Below, piece after piece: positions 11,881-64,000 of a stretch of 64,000 nt of DNA; within the stretch, counting starts at the first letter, position 1, and the number at the start of each line of letters is the position of its first letter. This DNA is from Prevotella sp. (lineage in GTDB: Bacteria; Bacteroidota; Bacteroidia; Bacteroidales; Bacteroidaceae). A program made the translations under genes and the position numbers. The DNA is taken from contig JAFYZT010000026.1 in assembly GCA_017548605.1 (NCBI GenBank), forward strand, positions 1-64,000, read 5' to 3'. The notes under the pieces were generated by a model. It was not told the DNA's origin. It worked only from the letters and a program-made list of their open reading frames with translations, and made no database searches.

Positions 11881-11955
11881 CGGTGCGTACGGGACTCGAA
11901 CCCGTGACCTCCTGCGTGACAGGCAGGCATTCTAACCAGGCTGAACTAACGCACC
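11881..11955 (-). tRNA. tRNA-Asp (GTC)
   Basis: A 75-nt cloverleaf read on the minus strand. The acceptor arms GGTGCGT / ACGCACC pair perfectly, the discriminator is G, and the T-loop is GTTCGAGTC. The anticodon stem CCTGC/GCAGG frames the loop CTGTCAC, giving anticodon GTC. CCA is not encoded. It is identical to the copy at 11993. Confidence 0.93.
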
Positions 11956-11992
11956 AATACTAACTTTATACAATGTGCTTATGATTACTTTG

Positions 11993-12067
11993 CGGTGCGT
12001 ACGGGACTCGAACCCGTGACCTCCTGCGTGACAGGCAGGCATTCTAACCAGGCTGAACTAACGCACC
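11993..12067 (-). tRNA. tRNA-Asp (GTC), second identical copy
   Basis: Sequence is identical over all 75 nt to the downstream copy. The two are separated by 37 bases and share one promoter (12096-12127), so they are very likely one transcript. Confidence 0.93.
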
Positions 12068-55487: not shown

Positions 55488-56312
55488 TTAGGAATTAAGT
55501 TTACCTTGTGTTACCGCATTGAAGAGCAGTTCGAGATTCACCGCTGTTTCCTCTTCATCCTTTTGGCGACGAGCCACCACTGCTGTACCTTGTATAGACG
55601 GTTCGGCATAGAGCACATCGTCGGTCATTTCCGAGGGATGACGGAAGGAGAAAGCATATTTGTCGGTGATTTCTGCCACCGATGCATCGAGCAACAGTTG
55701 AGAACGATCAAGAATGACCACGTGGTCAAGCAATGCCTCCACATCATGTACCTGATGCGTAGAGATGATAATGGTACGATCTTCGGCCATACACTGTGCG
55801 ATGACCTTTCTAAACTGTGTCTTCGACGGGATGTCGAGTCCATTTGTAGGTTCGTCCATGAGCAACCATTTGGTGTTTGCGGCGAGCGCAAAGCTCATAA
55901 ACACCTTCTTTTTCTGTCCCATGGAGAGAGCATTGAGTTTGAGGTCGGAAGAAAGTTCAAACTCCTTGAGACACTGTTCGAGCAGTTCCTCGCTGAATCG
56001 GGGATAGAATACCTTATTCAGTTTGACATATTTGCGCAGCGTCATGGCAGGAAGGTTGAACTCTTCCGGCACGATGAACATCTCTCGCAGCATGTCCGGA
56101 TTACGATCAGCGGAAAGGAAGTTGTCAACATGAGCCTCGCCTTTCGACGGATGTAGCAATCCTGTGATAAGATATAAGAGCGTAGACTTGCCCGTTCCAT
56201 TCTTACCAAGCAGTCCGTAGATGCAATTTTCAGAAAGTGTGAGGTTAAAATCTGAAAAAACCTCTTGTTTCGAACCTCCATATTTGAAGGTTAAATTCTT
56301 GACTTCCAACAT
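55488..56312 (-). CDS. ABC transporter ATP-binding protein of the YtrA-regulated operon
   Basis: A 274-residue ATPase. Walker A is GLLGKNGTGKSTLLYLI (about 33-50). The signature is LSMGQKKKVFMSFALAAN. Walker B is WLLMDEPTNGLDIPSK and the switch His is in ISTHQVHDVEAL. The ISTHQV form and the VPEEFNLPAMTLRKYV segment place it among YtrB/ABC-2 exporter ATPases. About 60 C-terminal residues are extra and poorly conserved. It is the first gene of a four-gene operon and lies 55 bases after a promoter with an operator-like palindrome. Confidence 0.88.
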   Translation of the reverse strand: MLEVKNLTFKYGGSKQEVFSDFNLTLSENCIYGLLGKNGTGKSTLLYLITGLLHPSKGEAHVDNFLSADRNPDMLREMFIVPEEFNLPAMTLRKYVKLNKVFYPRFSEELLEQCLKEFELSSDLKLNALSMGQKKKVFMSFALAANTKWLLMDEPTNGLDIPSKTQFRKVIAQCMAEDRTIIISTHQVHDVEALLDHVVILDRSQLLLDASVAEITDKYAFSFRHPSEMTDDVLYAEPSIQGTAVVARRQKDEEETAVNLELLFNAVTQGKLNS

Positions 56313-56332
56313 AATACCTTTGTTTTTATCGT

Positions 56333-56374
56333 TTGTGTAATAGTGTAATACTTAAATAGTACACTGCAAAGGTA
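56333..56374 (-). promoter_or_regulatory. Promoter and candidate GntR/YtrA operator
   Basis: On the minus strand the -7 box TACCTTTG (56367-56374) would start transcription near 56360. That start lies inside the inverted repeat AGTGTA-ATACT-TAAAT-AGTACACT (56342-56365). A further TGTGTAATA copy lies beside it. Overlap of palindrome and start site is what a repressor site would show. Confidence 0.6.
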
Positions 56375-56444
56375 TATTGTTTTTTTTAATCTGCAAATTT
56401 TTTCGTGATTTTTTTATTTTTTTTTGATGAAAGGGGTAAAAATT

Positions 56445-56520
56445 AAAAAATCCCAGGAGGATCTGGGAATTTTAGGTTCACTTAGGATAACCTGGAAATC
56501 CCAGGAAATCCTAAGCTGAC
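56445..56520. repeat. About seven degenerate 10-bp units
   Basis: Units resembling AGGAAATCCT and CCCAGGAGGA follow each other between the trpG stop and the ABC operon promoter. The composition resembles the 20-bp array at 6067. Nothing gene-like is present here. Confidence 0.5.
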
Positions 56521-56539
56521 CAAAAATGGGTAAGAGATG

Positions 56540-57103
56540 TTAGAGAGCGAGCCAGTTGGAGATGATTTGAGCACCATCGGGTGTAAGAACACTCTCTGGA
56601 TGAAATTGGATGCCACGAATATCGAATTGGCGATGACGAAGTGCCATGATTTGTCCTTCAGGACTACGTGCCGTCACTTCGAGGCAGTCAGGGAACGGGC
56701 TGTCATTCACTACCCAGCTGTGGTATCGTCCCACGGAGAAGGTGTCGGGCAATCCTTTGAAAATGTCGTCGTCCACCGTTTTTTGGCATGGTGTAGCCAC
56801 CCCATGAAAGACCTCAGAGAGATTTCCCAACGTTCCGCCAAAGACCTCGGCGATGGCCTGATGGCCGAGACAGACCCCCAGCATCGGTTTTTGACCCGCG
56901 TAATAACGAATCGTTTCCAATAGTTTTCCTGCTTCTGATGGTATCCCTGGACCTGGGGAAAGGATTATTTTATCAAAAGACTCTAACTGTGTCATTTCGA
57001 ACTGGTCGTTCCTATATACAATCACCTGTGCACCCAATTGTCTAACTAGATGTGCGAGGTTATAGGTGAAAGAATCGTAATTGTCGATGATACCTATTTT
57101 CAT
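56540..57103 (-). CDS. trpG: Anthranilate synthase component II (glutamine amidotransferase)
   Basis: TrpG supplies ammonia to TrpE by hydrolysing glutamine. At 187 residues it is a standalone class I amidotransferase. The N-terminus is IIDNYDSFTYNL, the nucleophile elbow is GVCLGHQ (Cys near 81) and the His/Glu pair is in FHPESVLTP. PabA is almost identical in type, and one protein often serves both pathways. Position at the end of the trp operon, 17 bases after trpE, favours TrpG. Confidence 0.93.
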   Translation of the reverse strand: MKIGIIDNYDSFTYNLAHLVRQLGAQVIVYRNDQFEMTQLESFDKIILSPGPGIPSEAGKLLETIRYYAGQKPMLGVCLGHQAIAEVFGGTLGNLSEVFHGVATPCQKTVDDDIFKGLPDTFSVGRYHSWVVNDSPFPDCLEVTARSPEGQIMALRHRQFDIRGIQFHPESVLTPDGAQIISNWLAL

Positions 57104-57119
57104 ATTGTTTCAGCTTCTT

Positions 57120-58544
57120 TTATGTTGTTTCAGCTTGTCGGATGGCCTTTACAAGTGCACCCAGTTTATGGTTACATTCCTCGAGTTCATATTGGTCATT
57201 GCTTTTGGCCACAATGCCACTCCCCGCCTGGAACCATAACTCTCCGTTGCGGGCTATGAAAGTACGTATGACGATGGCCTGATTGAGAGAGCCATCGAGT
57301 CCGATAGACCCGATACATCCACCATACGCACCACGGTTATGCGGTTCCAGCTCGCTAATTATTTGCATGGCCCTCACCTTTGGTGCCCCGCTGAGTGTTC
57401 CAGCCGGGAAAGTATCGATGAATGTCTCAATAGGATTGGCATTTTGCAGTAGTGTTCCACTCACGCGGCTTACGAGATGTATGACATGCGAGTAGAACTG
57501 CATGTCTTTGTAAAAGTCTACCTTTACGCCATCACAGTTTCTGGACAAGTCGTTTCGAGCCAGGTCTACAAGCATGACATGTTCCGCATTTTCCTTCGCA
57601 TCGTTGCGCAGGTATTCCGCGTTACATCTGTCTTTTTCAGGGTCTCCCGTTCTTGGTGTCGTTCCTGCTATGGGATCGATGTACGCCCTACCCTTTTCTA
57701 TGCGGCAATGTGTTTCCGGCGATGAACCGAAGATACGGAATCCCCCGAAATCAAAATAGAAGAGATATGGCGATGGGTTGATGCTTCGCAGGGTGCGGTA
57801 AAGTTTGAAGTCATCACCCTCATATCGTTGTATGAACCGTCGTGAAATGACTATCTGGAACACATCCCCCCTAAGGCAATGGTCAACGCATTTTCGGATG
57901 TTTTCTTTATGCTGTTCATCGGTAAGTGGCGATGACACGCCCCCTATCGTCTTGAAATCATAGGTGTTAACATTGGTCTTGTTGATTAGTTTTTCCAACT
58001 CATCAAGTTGCAGACAACCCATATCGTCCTGACCATTTGGCACGAGAGTCACTAATGTCATTACATTATTATAATGGTCGAAGACAATGATGTCGCGGAA
58101 GAAGATATAATAGATATCCGGCGCATCGTTGCTGGCCATTGTTTCATCTTTCACATCTATATCCTCGAAGTAACGCACCGCATTAAAAGTAGTGTATCCA
58201 TTCAGGCCACAGTATTGCGCATGTTCTCCTTCCACTTTGAATTGTGAGAGGAAAAGGTTGAACGTCTCTATCAACTGTTGCTTTGTTTTTCCTTTCACAG
58301 AGGAGATAATGTCAGTTGAGCGTATTGTACCGTCGGGAAATAATTCCTTTACCGTCCCATGGTCAACAGCTATTGATGCAAGGGGATGGACGCCTATAAA
58401 CGAACGTGAATTGTCGTTGGAATGATAATCCGAACATTCCATGAGTACACTTTGCGGATGGACATCACGCAGTCGCATGTAAATGCCCACCGGCGTGTGC
58501 AGGTCGGCGAGGATTGTCTTTGAAATTGCTTTATAATAGTACAT
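57120..58544 (-). CDS. trpE: Anthranilate synthase component I
   Basis: TrpE converts chorismate to anthranilate with TrpG. The 474-residue protein has the N-terminal tryptophan-binding region with LMECSDYHSNDNSRSFIG near 34, comparable to the LLES feedback motif. The chorismate-binding domain contains PIAGTTPRTGDPEKD, EHVMLVDLARNDLSR and FPAGTLSGAPKVRAM. The presence of a feedback motif and the trp context argue against PabB. It is followed by trpG and preceded by trpB with a 44-base gap. Confidence 0.95.
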   Translation of the reverse strand: MYYYKAISKTILADLHTPVGIYMRLRDVHPQSVLMECSDYHSNDNSRSFIGVHPLASIAVDHGTVKELFPDGTIRSTDIISSVKGKTKQQLIETFNLFLSQFKVEGEHAQYCGLNGYTTFNAVRYFEDIDVKDETMASNDAPDIYYIFFRDIIVFDHYNNVMTLVTLVPNGQDDMGCLQLDELEKLINKTNVNTYDFKTIGGVSSPLTDEQHKENIRKCVDHCLRGDVFQIVISRRFIQRYEGDDFKLYRTLRSINPSPYLFYFDFGGFRIFGSSPETHCRIEKGRAYIDPIAGTTPRTGDPEKDRCNAEYLRNDAKENAEHVMLVDLARNDLSRNCDGVKVDFYKDMQFYSHVIHLVSRVSGTLLQNANPIETFIDTFPAGTLSGAPKVRAMQIISELEPHNRGAYGGCIGSIGLDGSLNQAIVIRTFIARNGELWFQAGSGIVAKSNDQYELEECNHKLGALVKAIRQAETT

Positions 58545-58588
58545 AATGGGAATAATAGTATAAATGTAAATGTTGGGAGTGATGGGAA

Positions 58589-59794
58589 TTATAGATTGTT
58601 GGCATATTCACCGGCCATTTGTTTATTGTCGAGGTAGGTGTTGATGTCTTTATCGCCACGTCCGCTGACTGTGAGGACAACAATCTCATCATTATGGAAT
58701 TGTATTTTGGGGAGCGCCGCTATGATATGTGCACTTTCAATGGCCGGGATGATTCCTTCGAGTCGTGTCAGTTCATAACCCGCGCGTATAGCCTCATCGT
58801 CGTTGATGGCCAAAACGGTGGAACGTTTTTTCTCCGCCATGTTGGCATGCATGGGACCAATACCTGGATAGTCCAGTCCCGCCGAGATAGTAAATGCCTC
58901 TTCTATCTGCCCGTCTTCATTTTGCATGACCAGCGTCTTTGCCCCGTGAATGAATCCCAAGGTTCCCCGATGTATGGTAGCAGCCGTATAGTCAGTGTCG
59001 ATACCCTTTCCTCCCGCTTCCGCCAGGATGATTCGCACCCGATCATCGTTCATATAATGATAGATTGTACCCGCTGCATTGCTTCCGCCTCCGATACATG
59101 CCATGAGCGTGTCGGGGTAGTCGCGTCCCGTCTTTTCCAAGAGTTGTTCCTTTATCTCCTCCGATATGATGCTCTGCATACGCGCCACGATGTCTGGATA
59201 CGGATGAGGTCCCATGGTTGACCCTACGATATAAAACGTATCGTCGGGATGGCAGCACCAATCACGAATTGCTTGTGAGCACGCATCGCTCAGCGTCATA
59301 TTTCCCGTTGTTACGGGATGAACCTGTGCTCCGAGCATGCGCATACGCTGTACGTTGGTATATTGCCGTTCCACGTCCGTTTTTCCCATGAACACCTCGC
59401 ATTGCATGTCCATAAGCGCACATACCGTAGCCGTTGCCACGCCATGTTGCCCTGCCCCCGTTTCGGCGATGATTCTTTTCTTTCCCATCTTTTTAGCCAA
59501 GAGAATCTGTCCGACTGTATTGTTTATTTTATGCGCCCCGGTATGGTTGAGGTCTTCGCGTTTGAGGAACAGCCGGCAGCCATATTTTTCGCTCATACGC
59601 CGAGCATAGTAGAGCGGTGATGGCCGTCCTACGTAGTCACGGAGCAGCGCATGGTATTCGCGCTTGAACTCTTCGCTTTCCAATATGGGGATGTACGCCT
59701 CTTGCAAGTCGTGTACACACTTATAGAGTATTTCCGGAATATAGGCTCCTCCGTACTGTCCGTAGAAGCCACGATTATCGATATTGTAATTCAT
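58589..59794 (-). CDS. trpB: Tryptophan synthase beta chain
   Basis: TrpB joins indole and serine using PLP. The 401-residue protein has KREDLNHTGAHKINN with the PLP-binding Lys near 88, the phosphate loop CIGGGSNAAGTIY near 232, and EDGQIEEAFTISAGLDYPGIGP. It is the TrpB1 type that pairs with TrpA, whose gene directly precedes it. The start codon is touched by a 14-bp tandem repeat that also contains the trpA stop codon. Confidence 0.97.
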   Translation of the reverse strand: MNYNIDNRGFYGQYGGAYIPEILYKCVHDLQEAYIPILESEEFKREYHALLRDYVGRPSPLYYARRMSEKYGCRLFLKREDLNHTGAHKINNTVGQILLAKKMGKKRIIAETGAGQHGVATATVCALMDMQCEVFMGKTDVERQYTNVQRMRMLGAQVHPVTTGNMTLSDACSQAIRDWCCHPDDTFYIVGSTMGPHPYPDIVARMQSIISEEIKEQLLEKTGRDYPDTLMACIGGGSNAAGTIYHYMNDDRVRIILAEAGGKGIDTDYTAATIHRGTLGFIHGAKTLVMQNEDGQIEEAFTISAGLDYPGIGPMHANMAEKKRSTVLAINDDEAIRAGYELTRLEGIIPAIESAHIIAALPKIQFHNDEIVVLTVSGRGDKDINTYLDNKQMAGEYANNL

Positions 59795-59822
59795 GTTGAG
59801 GGTTTAGTGTTGAGGGTTTAGT
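59795..59822. repeat. Two copies of a 14-bp unit (four heptamers) between trpA and trpB
   Basis: GTTGAGGGTTTAGT occurs twice, from the base after the trpB ATG through the trpA stop codon. It makes up the entire spacer. Confidence 0.85.
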
Positions 59823-60594
59823 GTTCTAATGCTTCGTAGAGAGCGTCGAGCGCATCGGAGGGATTCTGGTGTTCGCTGAGCAGTGTAACGAATTTTGAGC
59901 CAATGATGGCCCCTGCAGCATTATCCTGGGCACTTTGGAGTGTCTGTCGGTTGGATATACCGAATCCTATCATTCGTGGAGTTTTCAGGTTCATGCTGTT
60001 GATTCTTTGGAAATATGCTTGTTTCGTTTCGTTGAACTGTTGTTGTGCCCCCGTGATACTGGCGGATGACACCATATAGATGAACCCATCGGTATGTTGG
60101 TCGATAAGACGGATTCGCTCTTCCGACGTTTCCGGAGTAATCATCATGATGACACGCACATCGTATTTGTCGGCCAATGGCTTTACATCTGCTATATAGT
60201 CATCGAAGGGCAAATCAGGAATAATGGTTCCGCTGACCCCACATTCGACACACCGTTGGAAGAAATGTTCAAGACCATAGTGCATGATAGGATTGAGATA
60301 ACTCATGATGACCAATGGGATTTTCACTTTATCATTAATGTCGTGAAGCTGTGAGAGGAGGATATCTAGCGTCATACCATTTTTCAAGGCTGTCGTGGCA
60401 GCTGTTTGTATGACCGGGCCATCTGCCAGTGGGTCACTGAAGGGCATTCCCACCTCGACCATATCGATACCTTTATCTTGCATGGCAAGGATTACCTCAC
60501 CGGTGCCATCAAGAGTAGGACATCCCGCACAAAAATAGAGCGACAACAGTTTTCTATTATCCCGTTGAGAGAAGAGTTGGTTGATTTTGTTCAT
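59818..60594 (-). CDS. trpA: Tryptophan synthase alpha chain
   Basis: TrpA cleaves indole-3-glycerol phosphate to indole, which is channelled to TrpB. The 258-residue TIM barrel has VEVGMPFSDPLADGPVIQ near 47-64, containing both catalytic residues (Glu and Asp), and GFGISNRQTLQSA near 208. It is placed after trpC and before trpB. Its stop TAA is part of the 14-bp repeat. Confidence 0.96.
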   Translation of the reverse strand: MNKINQLFSQRDNRKLLSLYFCAGCPTLDGTGEVILAMQDKGIDMVEVGMPFSDPLADGPVIQTAATTALKNGMTLDILLSQLHDINDKVKIPLVIMSYLNPIMHYGLEHFFQRCVECGVSGTIIPDLPFDDYIADVKPLADKYDVRVIMMITPETSEERIRLIDQHTDGFIYMVSSASITGAQQQFNETKQAYFQRINSMNLKTPRMIGFGISNRQTLQSAQDNAAGAIIGSKFVTLLSEHQNPSDALDALYEALEH

Positions 60595-60620
60595 AACAGT
60601 TGTTTTAAGAGTTATTGGGG

Positions 60621-61415
60621 TTAGAGGAGTTGTTGTATGAACTGCTTGAGTGCAAGACCCGGGTCGGGCATTTTCATGAATTGTTCTCCGATGAGGAATC
60701 CCCGGTAGCCCACTTCACGCAGTTGTTTTACCGTTAATGGGTTTGAAATGCCGCTTTCGCTAACCCAACATGCCCCTTTTGGCAATTTCTCTGCCAATCG
60801 AAACGAGTTTTGCACATCAGTGACGAAAGAGCCGAGATTTCTGTTATTGATTCCGAACATGTCAGGCTCCAATTCCGCGTAATGCAACTCCTCTTCACCA
60901 TGCATCTCCAATAACACCTCCAGTTGTAATTGGTGAGCCTCATTGAGGAGTGTCCTGCATTCGTTTTTTGACAAATCGGCCGCTATGAGCAGAACCGCTG
61001 AAGCTCCGCAGAGACGCGCCTGCAACAGTTGATACTCGTCGATAACGAAATTTTTGTAGAGCACAGGCGCAGAGACTCCTGATTCTCTTGCCACGGTGAT
61101 GAAAGCATCGTCACCCCCGAAGAAATGGCTGTCGGTTAAAATGCTGATAGCAGTTGCCCCATTTTGTTGGTATTTCATTGGCACGACTTCAGCACTTGCA
61201 TCTTTGTTGATCCACCCTTTAGATGGTGACTTTCTTTTAAATTCGGCGATGATACCTGTTGGAGAATCGAGCAATGCCTGTCGCATGGAGATTATTGGAG
61301 CGTTGTCAATCTTTCTTTCTACCAGCGTCAACAGTTCTTTATAAGGAAGTCGCTGTTTTATTTCCATCAGTTCCTTCCGTTTATGTGCTACTATGTCATT
61401 AAGGATGTCTGTCAT
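60621..61415 (-). CDS. trpC: Indole-3-glycerol phosphate synthase
   Basis: TrpC closes the indole ring from carboxyphenylaminodeoxyribulose phosphate. The 264-residue barrel has IAEFKRKSPSKGWI near 55 (catalytic Lys residues), FGINNRNLGSF near 193 and VSESGI near 218. It is a single-domain enzyme: no phosphoribosylanthranilate isomerase (TrpF) domain is fused to it, and no separate trpF is present in this operon. It follows trpD after one base. Confidence 0.96.
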   Translation of the reverse strand: MTDILNDIVAHKRKELMEIKQRLPYKELLTLVERKIDNAPIISMRQALLDSPTGIIAEFKRKSPSKGWINKDASAEVVPMKYQQNGATAISILTDSHFFGGDDAFITVARESGVSAPVLYKNFVIDEYQLLQARLCGASAVLLIAADLSKNECRTLLNEAHQLQLEVLLEMHGEEELHYAELEPDMFGINNRNLGSFVTDVQNSFRLAEKLPKGACWVSESGISNPLTVKQLREVGYRGFLIGEQFMKMPDPGLALKQFIQQLL

Positions 61416-61416
61416 A

Positions 61417-62421
61417 TCACGAATTGATTTCTACGAATTTTTTGAATACTTTCAATGCCGCTCCACTCTCTATGGATGTACGGGCGATGTCAAGACATTC
61501 CTCAATGGTTTTTTCTCCCCTTTCGAGCACCTGTATACCAAACGCCGCGTTAGCCATAACGATTTCTTTCTGTGCCTGCAAGCATCGGTTTTCGAGTACG
61601 CTATCGAAGATATCTGCCGCCTCTTCTTCCGTTGCCCCTGCCACCAATTCGTGAGGTTGGGCAATGGATAGTCCCAGCTGTTGCGGTGAGAACACCCTTT
61701 CGTAGTTGTTAGTAGTCACTTTGAAGTCGCCAGTGAGTGATATCTCATCATACCCGTCGATGCTGTTGACGATGGCGTAGTCAATACCCATTTTCTGATA
61801 TACATTATTATATAGGCGCATCTGGTCGAGATTAGCCACCCCAAGAAGTTGGCATTTTGGCTGTGACGGATTGACGAGTGGACCGAGGAGGTTGAAGAAT
61901 GTTGGAAACTGTAATGCTTTCCTGATATGTCCCACAAATTTCATGGCTTTCGCGAAGAGTTGAGCGTGAAGGTACACGATACCACATTCGTTGAGCGAGC
62001 GGTTGAGCAAGTCGCTGTCTGCCGTGAACTTCACGCCATGTTGTTGTATGACGTTAGAAGCTCCGCTTGTTGATGTAGCTGCGTAATTGCCATGTTTAGC
62101 CACTTTGTATCCCGCGCCGGCAATGACGAAACACGCTGTTGTAGATATGTTAAACGTGTTTTTACGGTCTCCTCCCGTTCCCACCACGTCGATGTACCTG
62201 TCGGCTGATAAGATGGCGGGAACTCCCGTTTCAAGAATGCCATCGCGGAATCCTAACAGTTCATCGACGGTAATGCCACGCATCTGGATGGCTGTAAGCA
62301 GTGCCGCTATTTGTTCATCAGGAATTTCCCCTCTAGTAATGGCAAGAAGGATGTCATGTGTCTCATTACGCTGCAGTTTTTCCTGGTTGAGAATTCTGCC
62401 TAAAATTTCTTTCATTTCCAT
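61417..62421 (-). CDS. trpD: Anthranilate phosphoribosyltransferase
   Basis: TrpD transfers phosphoribose from PRPP to anthranilate. The 334-residue protein has the PRPP motif VVGTGGDRKNTFNIST near 83 and the KHGNYAATSTSGASNV anthranilate/PRPP loop near 112. It is the first structural gene of the operon, 38 bases after the attenuator terminator. Two Met codons (62421 and 62415) could start it; I keep the first. It is not fused to trpG, unlike the enterobacterial form. Confidence 0.96.
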   Translation of the reverse strand: MEMKEILGRILNQEKLQRNETHDILLAITRGEIPDEQIAALLTAIQMRGITVDELLGFRDGILETGVPAILSADRYIDVVGTGGDRKNTFNISTTACFVIAGAGYKVAKHGNYAATSTSGASNVIQQHGVKFTADSDLLNRSLNECGIVYLHAQLFAKAMKFVGHIRKALQFPTFFNLLGPLVNPSQPKCQLLGVANLDQMRLYNNVYQKMGIDYAIVNSIDGYDEISLTGDFKVTTNNYERVFSPQQLGLSIAQPHELVAGATEEEAADIFDSVLENRCLQAQKEIVMANAAFGIQVLERGEKTIEECLDIARTSIESGAALKVFKKFVEINS

Positions 62422-62459
62422 GATTGCTATGTTTTTTGATTTTAATTGATTTTTTTGAA

Positions 62460-62491
62460 TAAAAAAGGGCCTGTCGTGGAACGACAGGCCT
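62460..62491 (-). terminator. trp attenuator terminator
   Basis: On the minus strand GGCCTGTCGT pairs with ACGACAGGCC around a 3-base loop, followed by a run of T. It lies between the leader peptide and trpD, where readthrough decides expression of the operon. Confidence 0.85.
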
Positions 62492-62531
62492 CAGTGTATC
62501 TTTTTTTCGATTACGCACACGGCTACGTTAC

Positions 62532-62594
62532 TCACGACTTTTTGAATCTTGAGTAGCGCCACCACCATGCGTTAAAGTTCGAAAATGTCATCAT
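62532..62594 (-). CDS. trpL: trp operon leader peptide
   Basis: A 20-codon reading frame, too short for usual gene finding, codes for MMTFSNFNAWWWRYSRFKKS with three consecutive Trp codons (62559-62567) and ends with TGA. It lies 18 bases after a consensus -7 box and 40 bases before the terminator stem. Downstream of the Trp codons, GGCGCTACTC (62551-62560) can pair with GAGTAACGTAGCC (62521-62533). GCCGTGT (62517-62523) can alternatively pair with ACACTGAGGC (62488-62497), which would break the terminator stem. This is the classical arrangement for ribosome-mediated attenuation: stalling at Trp codons would favour the antiterminator. The control mechanism is inferred, the frame is seen. Confidence 0.85.
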   Translation of the reverse strand: MMTFSNFNAWWWRYSRFKKS

Positions 62595-62611
62595 ATCCTT
62601 GAATTTGGTTG

Positions 62612-62642
62612 CAAAGTTAATGATAAAAATTGATTCTGCAAA
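62612..62642 (-). promoter_or_regulatory. Promoter of the trp operon
   Basis: The -33 TTTG (62639-62642), a 19-base spacer and the -7 TAACTTTG (62612-62619) on the minus strand. Predicted transcription start is near 62606, giving a leader of about 185 bases before trpD. Confidence 0.8.
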
Positions 62643-62703
62643 TAAAATGTAAGTTTTTTGCTAAAAAAAGATGAAATACTATGCTTTTCCAATAAAATCC
62701 AGG

Positions 62704-63114
62704 TTATGGTTGCTGAAGTGGCGTATCTTTGCGGTATGAGGTGCCCGTGAGGACACAGATGAGTTCACCCTTCTGGTTGGTTACTCGAACCTCAGCGTAG
62801 GGAATGCGGTGATGGTTGAATATTTCGCAGGCTTCAGCCGTCAAGCTATCGCCTTCTTTTGCTGATTTCAAGAATGAGATAGAGTTATTGATGCCGAAGG
62901 TGAGTTTACCGTGACTGTTCATGACCGCCGCTAATGCCAAGTCAGCCAGAGTGAAGAGTGCTCCTCCCTGACAAACGTTGCCACCATTGAGGTGTCGATG
63001 GCTGACAATCATGGTAGCTTTAGCATATCCTTCACTTATTTCAACAAGTTGGGCTCCGTTTTCTGCAGCGAAACGATCGTTTTTGTTGAGGAAATCCATG
63101 AGTTTCATATCCAT
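62704..63114 (-). CDS. PaaI-type hotdog thioesterase
   Basis: A 136-residue single hotdog-fold protein. The core RHLNGGNVCQGGALFTLADLALA (about 40-62) matches the PaaI/YdiI thioesterase motif, with Gln where many members have His before the double Gly. The catalytic Asp equivalent is in TLAD. Members hydrolyse acyl- or aryl-CoA thioesters. No pathway context is visible; it lies between the trp promoter and the susC region on the minus strand. Confidence 0.87.
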   Translation of the reverse strand: MDMKLMDFLNKNDRFAAENGAQLVEISEGYAKATMIVSHRHLNGGNVCQGGALFTLADLALAAVMNSHGKLTFGINNSISFLKSAKEGDSLTAEACEIFNHHRIPYAEVRVTNQKGELICVLTGTSYRKDTPLQQP

Positions 63115-63223
63115 TGAATATAAAGAGTTGAGTTATGCTGTGCAAAGGTAAGAAATAAATGAAAGGAATACGACAGTTTACGATAACGTTTTCAACATTA
63201 ATGAGATTATTTTTCATGAAAAA

Positions 63224-63436
63224 TTTGTTTAATATTCAAAAAAAAATGCTATATTTGCAAAATCAAACAATTGGCAGTTGGTAATAAGTTGATATGCTGC
63301 TTTGTCCTTTTGTCACATTGTTTCTATGTGAACCAAGCCCGCGAGGGTGTTACGAACTACTTAAAACAGGAACTTACCATCATTGACATTCAAGCGGTAA
63401 TAAACCTAAGACAATTTTAACTAAACCTAAATATTT
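63224..63436 (+). promoter_or_regulatory. susC promoter and long leader with a possible upstream ORF
   Basis: The -7 box TATATTTG (63250-63257), with TTTG at 63224-63227 (22-base spacer), gives a leader of about 175 bases. Within it a 30-codon frame (63294-63386, beginning MLLCPFVTLFLC and ending TYHH) and a small hairpin (TCACAT/ATGTGA, about 63313-63330) are visible. The rest of the 322-bp gap holds no gene. Confidence 0.45.
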
Positions 63437-64000
63437 ATGTCTGGAAAATTTAAAATCTTTCGGATTGCGCTCATGTTCATTCTGGCCATGGTGGCTGGAG
63501 GCATGTCCGCGCAAAACATCACAGGTAATGTGACCGATTCGAGCGGAGAACCCATTATCGGTGCCACGATTATGGAGACCGGCACCAGCAATGGCACCGT
63601 GACCGACATTGACGGAAACTTTACCTTGAGCAATGTGAAAGGCAATCAGATTACCGTCTCGTACATCGGTATGAAGACACAACAGGTGAATATTGCCGGC
63701 AAGTCAACCGTGAACATCACCCTCGAAGACGAGTCGACCACGTTGAACGATGTGGTGGTGATTGGTTACGGTACAGTGAGAAAGAAAGACTTGACAGGTG
63801 CCGTCAGCACCGTCAAGGGTCAAGATTTGGTCAAGGTACCTGTGACCAATGTCGCCGAAGCCTTGACCGGTAAGTTGGCCGGTGTTCAGATTACCACCTC
63901 CGACGGTTCTCCCGATGCCGAGATGTTGATTCGCGTGCGTGGTGGCGGTTCTATTACCGGTGACAACTCACCTCTATATATTGTTGACGGCTTCCCCGTA
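63437..64000 (+). CDS. SusC/RagA-type TonB-dependent outer-membrane protein, 5' part
   Basis: Only the first 188 residues are in the window; the family is about 1000 residues long. A signal peptide (1-25, ending GMSAQ) is followed by the carboxypeptidase-D-like N-terminal domain (about 27-105, ITGNVTDSSGEPIIGATIMETG). A TonB-box-like LNDVVVIGYGTVRKKDLTGAV comes next, and then the start of the plug domain (VAEALTGKLAGVQI ... YIVDGFP). Such proteins form nutrient importers with a SusD lipoprotein, which would be expected to the right. The substrate cannot be assigned. Confidence 0.95.
   Translation, partial: MSGKFKIFRIALMFILAMVAGGMSAQNITGNVTDSSGEPIIGATIMETGTSNGTVTDIDGNFTLSNVKGNQITVSYIGMKTQQVNIAGKSTVNITLEDESTTLNDVVVIGYGTVRKKDLTGAVSTVKGQDLVKVPVTNVAEALTGKLAGVQITTSDGSPDAEMLIRVRGGGSITGDNSPLYIVDGFPV

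Follow-up and report, generated by a model that had tools for sequence, protein, structure and literature searches.

The tryptophan operon at the end of a Prevotella sp. contig raises the question of how its transcription is controlled. A preliminary description of the window (the whole 64,000-nucleotide stretch analysed here) proposed a ribosome-mediated attenuator in front of trpD, built on the logic of the enterobacterial trp leader. Here, we consider whether the element is such an attenuator and, if so, which parts of the RNA would pair to switch it. On sequence and modelled folds, the element very probably attenuates transcription of the trp operon through the ribosome and is of the Bacteroid-trp type; its antiterminator would grip the apex of the terminator.

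Anatomy of the putative trp leader

The whole element lies on the minus strand (62642–62461), ends 39 nt before trpD and comprises the following features:

62639..62642, minus strand: promoter −33 element TTTG, read from the sequence
62612..62619, minus strand: promoter −7 element TAACTTTG, read from the sequence
62532..62594, minus strand: leader peptide frame MMTFSNFNAWWWRYSRFKKS followed by TGA, 20 codons; a frame of the same design is present in each of 48 distinct genus leaders
62559..62567, minus strand: three Trp codons TGGTGGTGG, the putative regulatory codons
62545..62561, minus strand: strand 1, left side of the 1:2 hairpin, within the leader frame
62520..62539, minus strand: strand 2, right side of the 1:2 hairpin, holding the leader stop codon; from folding and pairing conservation, the alternative partner of the terminator apex
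62473..62490, minus strand: predicted antiterminator target of strand 2, comprising the terminator 5′ arm, the loop and the first five bases of the 3′ arm (fold −19.1 kcal/mol)
62468..62490, minus strand: terminator hairpin GGCCTGTCGT-TCC-ACGACAGGCC
62461..62467, minus strand: terminator tail CTTTTTT, read from the sequence

The promoter, the 20-codon frame with WWW, the 1:2 pairing and the terminator with its T-run just before trpD are all present as first described. The 2:3-type alternative pairing also exists, but it extends beyond the apex of the terminator and takes in bases of the loop and the descending arm. TTTG and TAACTTTG, separated by a 19-nt spacer, are what we take to be Bacteroidetes-type promoter boxes, and transcription presumably starts near 62605. 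The 1:2 hairpin (62561–62520) has a left side that starts inside the third Trp codon, and approximately 30 nt separate it from the 10-bp terminator. The Trp codons overlap strand 1, and by sequence and predicted folds the 1:2 hairpin, the antiterminator and the terminator are mutually exclusive.

The leader RNA of the window has a folding z of −3.65, with 0/200 shuffles equally stable, and its 10-pair terminator stem is the longest among 10 terminator-like sites in 56000–64000. Runs of TGGTGGTGG occur three times in the window against 0.49 expected, a number reached by 3/100 shuffles; TGGTGGTGG by itself is weak evidence, and a Trp run alone would not suffice.

Relationship to known leader elements

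The preliminary description knew of no experimental account of trp attenuation in this group. Our literature search, which covered little subscription literature, found no experiment on trp attenuation in Bacteroidetes, but a leader of this kind, RF01692 (Bacteroid-trp), had been predicted in 2010, according to the consulted part of Weinberg et al. (PMC2864571), and is mentioned before the trp operon of Flavobacterium psychrophilum in the consulted part of a second paper (PMC6414381). The excerpts of a third report 'strong clues' that amino-acid operons of F. psychrophilum are attenuated through leader peptides, with pheA and hisG elements that have no Rfam hits (PMC9723704). That proposal shares the phylum and the leader-peptide type with ours but, in the excerpted passages, comes with no mechanism or pairing model (PMC9723704, PMC6414381). 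The existence of the attenuator is not new; what appears to be new is the apex wiring and the extent of the family. Vitreschak et al., in 2004, reportedly also had the Bacteroidetes/Chlorobi group among their attenuation candidates.

An ordinary Rfam scan of the whole window did not report RF01692, and a permissive scan placed it at 62614–62483 with 39.5 bits (E 0.0024 for the 321 bases searched). As this score is below the curated gathering score of 49, we call the window leader a homologue of the Bacteroid-trp leaders and not an Rfam-listed member. Both belong to Bacteroidetes, stand before trp genes, carry a short frame with Trp codons and have the same hairpin, and the alignment to the window is full-length; the RF01692 model differs in stopping in the terminator 5′ arm, with the loop, the 3′ arm and the antiterminator outside it. 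Four loci of the genus that pass the RF01692 cut-off (L002–L005) align with the window from the Trp codons to the terminator. The E. coli trpL family (RF00513) gave no match in the window in either the ordinary or the permissive scan.

Distribution in the genus

A genus leader model, built from 17 aligned leaders and run on 60 genomes of the genus, matched 46. We discounted as spurious the weak match in G017, a genome without TrpB, which scored 38 bits and fell on both strands; the remaining 45 genomes are identical to the 45/60 with a true TrpB, defined as a TrpB match better than 1e-200. The preliminary description had looked to relatives for a Trp-rich frame with a terminator, and all genomes with a true TrpB carry the leader. 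RF01692 found 5/60 of these genomes at E ≤ 0.001, four of them above its cut-off. A chance Trp run was rejected, as the arrangement recurs in exactly the genomes with true TrpB. One genome (G042) has a divergent TrpD and trpF, with neither TrpB nor leader. Several of the 15/60 genomes without true TrpB are rated 99 % complete, and the missing enzyme makes Trp auxotrophy probable in part of the genus.

Loss or substitution of the Trp codons, which would have spoken against attenuation, was not what we found: WWW is present in 47/48 distinct genus leaders, the remaining one having WW, and in 8/10 further loci, with WW in the other two (three of these ten repeat leaders already counted). The motif TAnnTTTG lies no more than 90 nt before the leader ATG in 44/48 distinct leaders, against 4.2 % of shuffles, and TTG lies 18–22 nt upstream of it in 42/48.

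The leader is not tied to one gene. Within the genus, 17 leaders have trpD as the first trp gene that follows on their strand, and 29 have trpB or a TrpB-like gene; in G012, trpF sits between leader and trpB. When 79 TrpD loci and the window were searched, the leader stood ahead of trpD in 11 loci and the window, where trpD heads the operon, whereas in 60/68 leaderless TrpD loci an ORF with a TrpG C-terminal end lies directly before trpD. The leader therefore marks the head of the operon, and an ordinary between-operon terminator was rejected on this account.

Distribution in the order and phylum

The genus-built model was also run against 198 Bacteroidales genomes, each at least 90 % complete, and matched 65 of them, in 73 match rows. 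We inspected the window, the 29 loci that the search itself supplied and, among the 43 remaining rows, 40; two opposite-strand second matches (in G225 and G139) and one match inside L193 were left out. Those 40 loci comprised 25 Trp leaders, two His leaders, one Cys-rich leader and 12 judged to be generic terminators. In all, 54 Trp leaders besides the window were identified in 54 genomes; L165 is absent from the numerical tests because the terminator finder failed there. The first gene behind them is trpE (29), trpB (21), a TrpB-like gene (2), trpD (1) or none recognised (1), and WWW is present in 44/54, the rest having WW or WCWW. RF01692 recognises 10/40 tested Trp-leader loci of the order. 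Across 296 genomes of the phylum it returned 29 matches, 28 of which belong to a further two families within the class (probably Flavobacteriaceae); all 28 have trpE as first gene.

Trp leaders were also seen before genes for TrpB-like PLP enzymes, at L147 (genome G046; TIGR01415) and at L190 and L212 (both by tblastn). The leader at L147 is a second copy in its genome and reads Trp-Cys-Trp by eye. From this placement, the TrpB-like enzyme would seem to be part of the Trp response.

Conservation of the three pairings

Pairing was counted in an alignment of the 48 distinct genus sequences, made with a model that contained only the 1:2 hairpin and the terminator. Standard pairs fill 98.6 % of cells in the 1:2 hairpin, 95.5 % in the terminator and 87.0 % in the antiterminator, against at most 58.5 % for any of the three structures in slid controls. 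Antiterminator cells changed on both sides number 19 against 10.5, and the antiterminator covariation score is 0.173 against 0.152, both exceeding nearly all shuffles; doubly changed antiterminator pairs in the genus (4 against 3.7) are not above shuffles. Columns 20, 36 and 107 read A-U-A or A-U-G in most sequences and G-C-G in ten, and pairs 20–36 (1:2) and 36–107 (antiterminator) are both standard in 48/48 rows. With the operon-head position, the Trp codons and all three pairings kept, the proposal of a ribosome-mediated trp attenuator stands.

Proposed wiring of the antiterminator

Enterobacterial attenuation provides the reference for the pairings. The E. coli trp leader resembles the window leader in having Trp codons in a short frame, a 1:2 hairpin, a terminator and a stop codon within reach of strand 2; in E. 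coli, however, strand 2 has the terminator's ascending arm as its partner, whereas window-type leaders covary with the loop and descending arm. The enterobacterial logic claimed in the preliminary description thus holds for attenuation as such, and the antiterminator wiring appears to differ.

The covariation was measured by a permutation test in which each leader was scored against its own and foreign terminators (5000 permutations). The order-wide set (n=35) held one leader per family with distinct apices, the window's family being counted twice; taking one leader per family removes relatedness only partly. Pairing of the leader to its own loop and five 3′-arm bases reached −9.93 kcal/mol against −7.73 with foreign terminators (z −6.6, 0/5000), whereas against the terminator 5′ (ascending) arm no covariation was seen (z +0.4). 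The apex signal is unchanged without the window (z −6.6) and persists among leaders without the common TCGTGAG core (z −6.3, n=24). The base of the 3′ arm gave z 0.0 to 0.6, the loop letters alone only z −1.7 to −2.2, and the control with reversed leaders is also slightly negative (z −1.2 to −2.1). A replicate set from the other families of the class, found with RF01692 and little diverged, gave z −2.5 (72/5000) without the Bacteroidales locus L265 and z −4.3 with it included.

Individual leaders match strand 2 to the loop and 3′ arm with different letters: ACCGUGAGU:ACUCACGGU in L186, UCGGGAG:CUCCCGA in L179, UGUCGUAAG:CUUACGACA in L166, UUGUGUUAAG:CUUAGCACAA in L211 and CUUAACACAA in L213. 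In Bacteroidales leaders, the pairing of strand 2 runs through the ascending arm and the loop into the descending arm.

The same attenuator could instead be wired as in E. coli, with strand 2 pairing with the ascending arm only and its complementarity to loop and descending arm being a by-product. The ascending arm is indeed also predicted to be leader-paired when the ribosome stalls (mean 0.57 in the order and 0.71 in the genus; 0.76 in the window), and the GCC:GGC pairs of the antiterminator are nearly invariant. This arrangement would nonetheless leave the lack of leader–ascending arm covariation among families beside the strong signal at the apex. The permutation test is able to see classical wiring, since it detects a 5′-arm match in 23 Bacteroidales His leaders before hisG (z −4.8), though these have an apex signal too (z −3.3). 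In the stalled fold of E. coli trpL, our single proteobacterial comparator for wiring, the leader pairs with the ascending arm at 0.69–0.71 and with the apex at 0.01–0.02, provided that no more than 4 bases of the 3′ arm are present; some apex pairing (up to 0.41) appears in the absence of a ribosome, and with strand 1 masked the terminator wins once 6 bases of the 3′ arm are included. We regard the textbook wiring as unlikely for the Bacteroidales leaders.

We somewhat favour the reading that the Bacteroidota trp antiterminator is wired 2:(loop+4) and not 2:3, with strand 2 mimicking the ascending arm and capturing the emerging loop and descending arm, and the loop serving as a toehold through which the terminator is kept from nucleating. 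Amino-acid attenuation would then have a second wiring.

Predicted switch by ribosome position

For the switch, we folded RNA that stopped after 6 bases of the 3′ arm and compared three states: a ribosome stalled at the last Trp codon, no ribosome, and a ribosome at the stop codon. Predicted pairing between apex and leader averaged 0.64, 0.17 and 0.00, respectively, in the 54 order leaders and 0.77, 0.35 and 0.08 in the 48 genus leaders; for the window the values were 0.87, 0.24 and 0.00. The alternation between two folds expected at the outset is seen in these predictions, the antiterminator being favoured on stalling at Trp and nearly absent with the ribosome at the stop codon. Stalled apex pairing was 0.5 or less in 8/54 order leaders and 3/48 genus leaders, and apex pairing above 0.5 was predicted without any ribosome in 10/54 and 14/48. 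At equilibrium, masking strand 1 does not prevent a complete terminator from prevailing (pair probabilities 0.90–1.0 in the window; mean 0.98 over 54 leaders). Since it prevails in each of the states, the antiterminator would have to win kinetically, by forming first.

These folds are consistent with the following sequence of events. With ample Trp, the ribosome would reach the stop codon and cover strand 2, and the terminator would form before trpD. With scarce Trp, it would stall on TGGTGGTGG, covering strand 1 and freeing strand 2, which could then pair with the emerging terminator tip (the upper 5′ arm, the loop and the start of the 3′ arm). The loop emerges before the 3′ arm and may offer strand 2 its first hold, a kinetic step that we infer. 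With its tip occupied, the terminator stem would be unable to nucleate, and RNA polymerase would continue into trpD-C-A-B-E-G.

The operon behind the leader

The genes were assigned as follows, in the order trpD-C-A-B-E-G:

61417..62421, minus strand: trpD (TIGR01245, 293.5 bits, above cut-off)
60621..61415, minus strand: trpC (NF001377, 281.2 bits, above cut-off)
59818..60594, minus strand: trpA (TIGR00262, 218.6 bits, above cut-off)
58589..59794, minus strand: trpB (TIGR00263, 565 bits, above cut-off)
57120..58544, minus strand: trpE (best TIGR00564, 409.4 bits, below the cut-off of 517.7; named from context)
56540..57103, minus strand: trpG (TIGR00566 trpG_papA, 190.3 bits, above cut-off)

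The operon lacks trpF. A search with PF00697 gave 0 matches in the window's genome (92 % complete), while the gene is present in 14/14 control genomes, and the gap between trpC and trpA (60595–60620) is only 26 nt; relatives hold trpF between trpD and trpB. The species may lack the trpF step, so that the pathway may be incomplete, or it may use another enzyme or carry the gene in the missing part of the assembly.

The absent trpF and the short gap could mean that the operon is decaying and the leader a relic, making attenuation irrelevant in this strain. With an assembly that is 92 % rather than fully complete, six open trp frames and an intact leader and terminator, we consider this very improbable. 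That Trp is sensed by other means (a T-box, a riboswitch or an RNA-binding protein), with the Trp frame incidental, is extremely improbable: beyond the general existence of such systems, nothing was found in its favour, no T-box or riboswitch matched at Rfam cut-offs in the window or in a permissive scan of 62400–62720, and the Trp codons, the stop position and strand 1 are conserved jointly.

In TrpD searches, the closest named relatives are Prevotella and Xylanibacter from the rumen or other ruminant sources; one of the searched loci (L007), from a Prevotella MAG of water buffalo, has a TrpD 100 % identical over its 320 residues. Elsewhere in the window, a tandem pair of tRNA genes with equal scores (68.6 bits each) lies on the minus strand at 11881–12067 and is possibly a recent duplication.

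Leaders for other amino acids

A His-rich leader frame with a terminator was found by script before hisG in 21/30 Bacteroidales hisG loci (L231–L260); L238, seen by eye, and L204 and L224 are further His leaders. No Rfam match was returned for 20 hisG loci scanned, 18 of them with a His leader, and no His leader was seen at the hisG locus of the window's own genome (L240). On the minus strand of L199, a Cys-rich leader frame (MKISAYISINCCWCCENTSKCKQFVNM) and a terminator precede a cysteine-synthase-like gene, whose best family is cysK, the partial protein scoring below cut-off. We regard L199 as a candidate Cys attenuator.

Implications for Bacteroidales

What is known of attenuation, a textbook form of regulation, comes mainly from Proteobacteria; here a putative attenuator of a catalogued family stands at the head of the trp operon in the 45/60 genus genomes with a true TrpB and in many other Bacteroidales, a fraction of which the public RF01692 model reports. 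If the apex wiring is true, the antiterminator has a different part of the terminator to hold, the use of the loop as a toehold being a kinetic hypothesis. That wiring would also have survived the leader's moves between trpE, trpB, trpD and TrpB-like genes, beside His leaders of mainly classical wiring. The leader would then also be a natural means of making gene expression in gut and rumen Bacteroidales respond to Trp.
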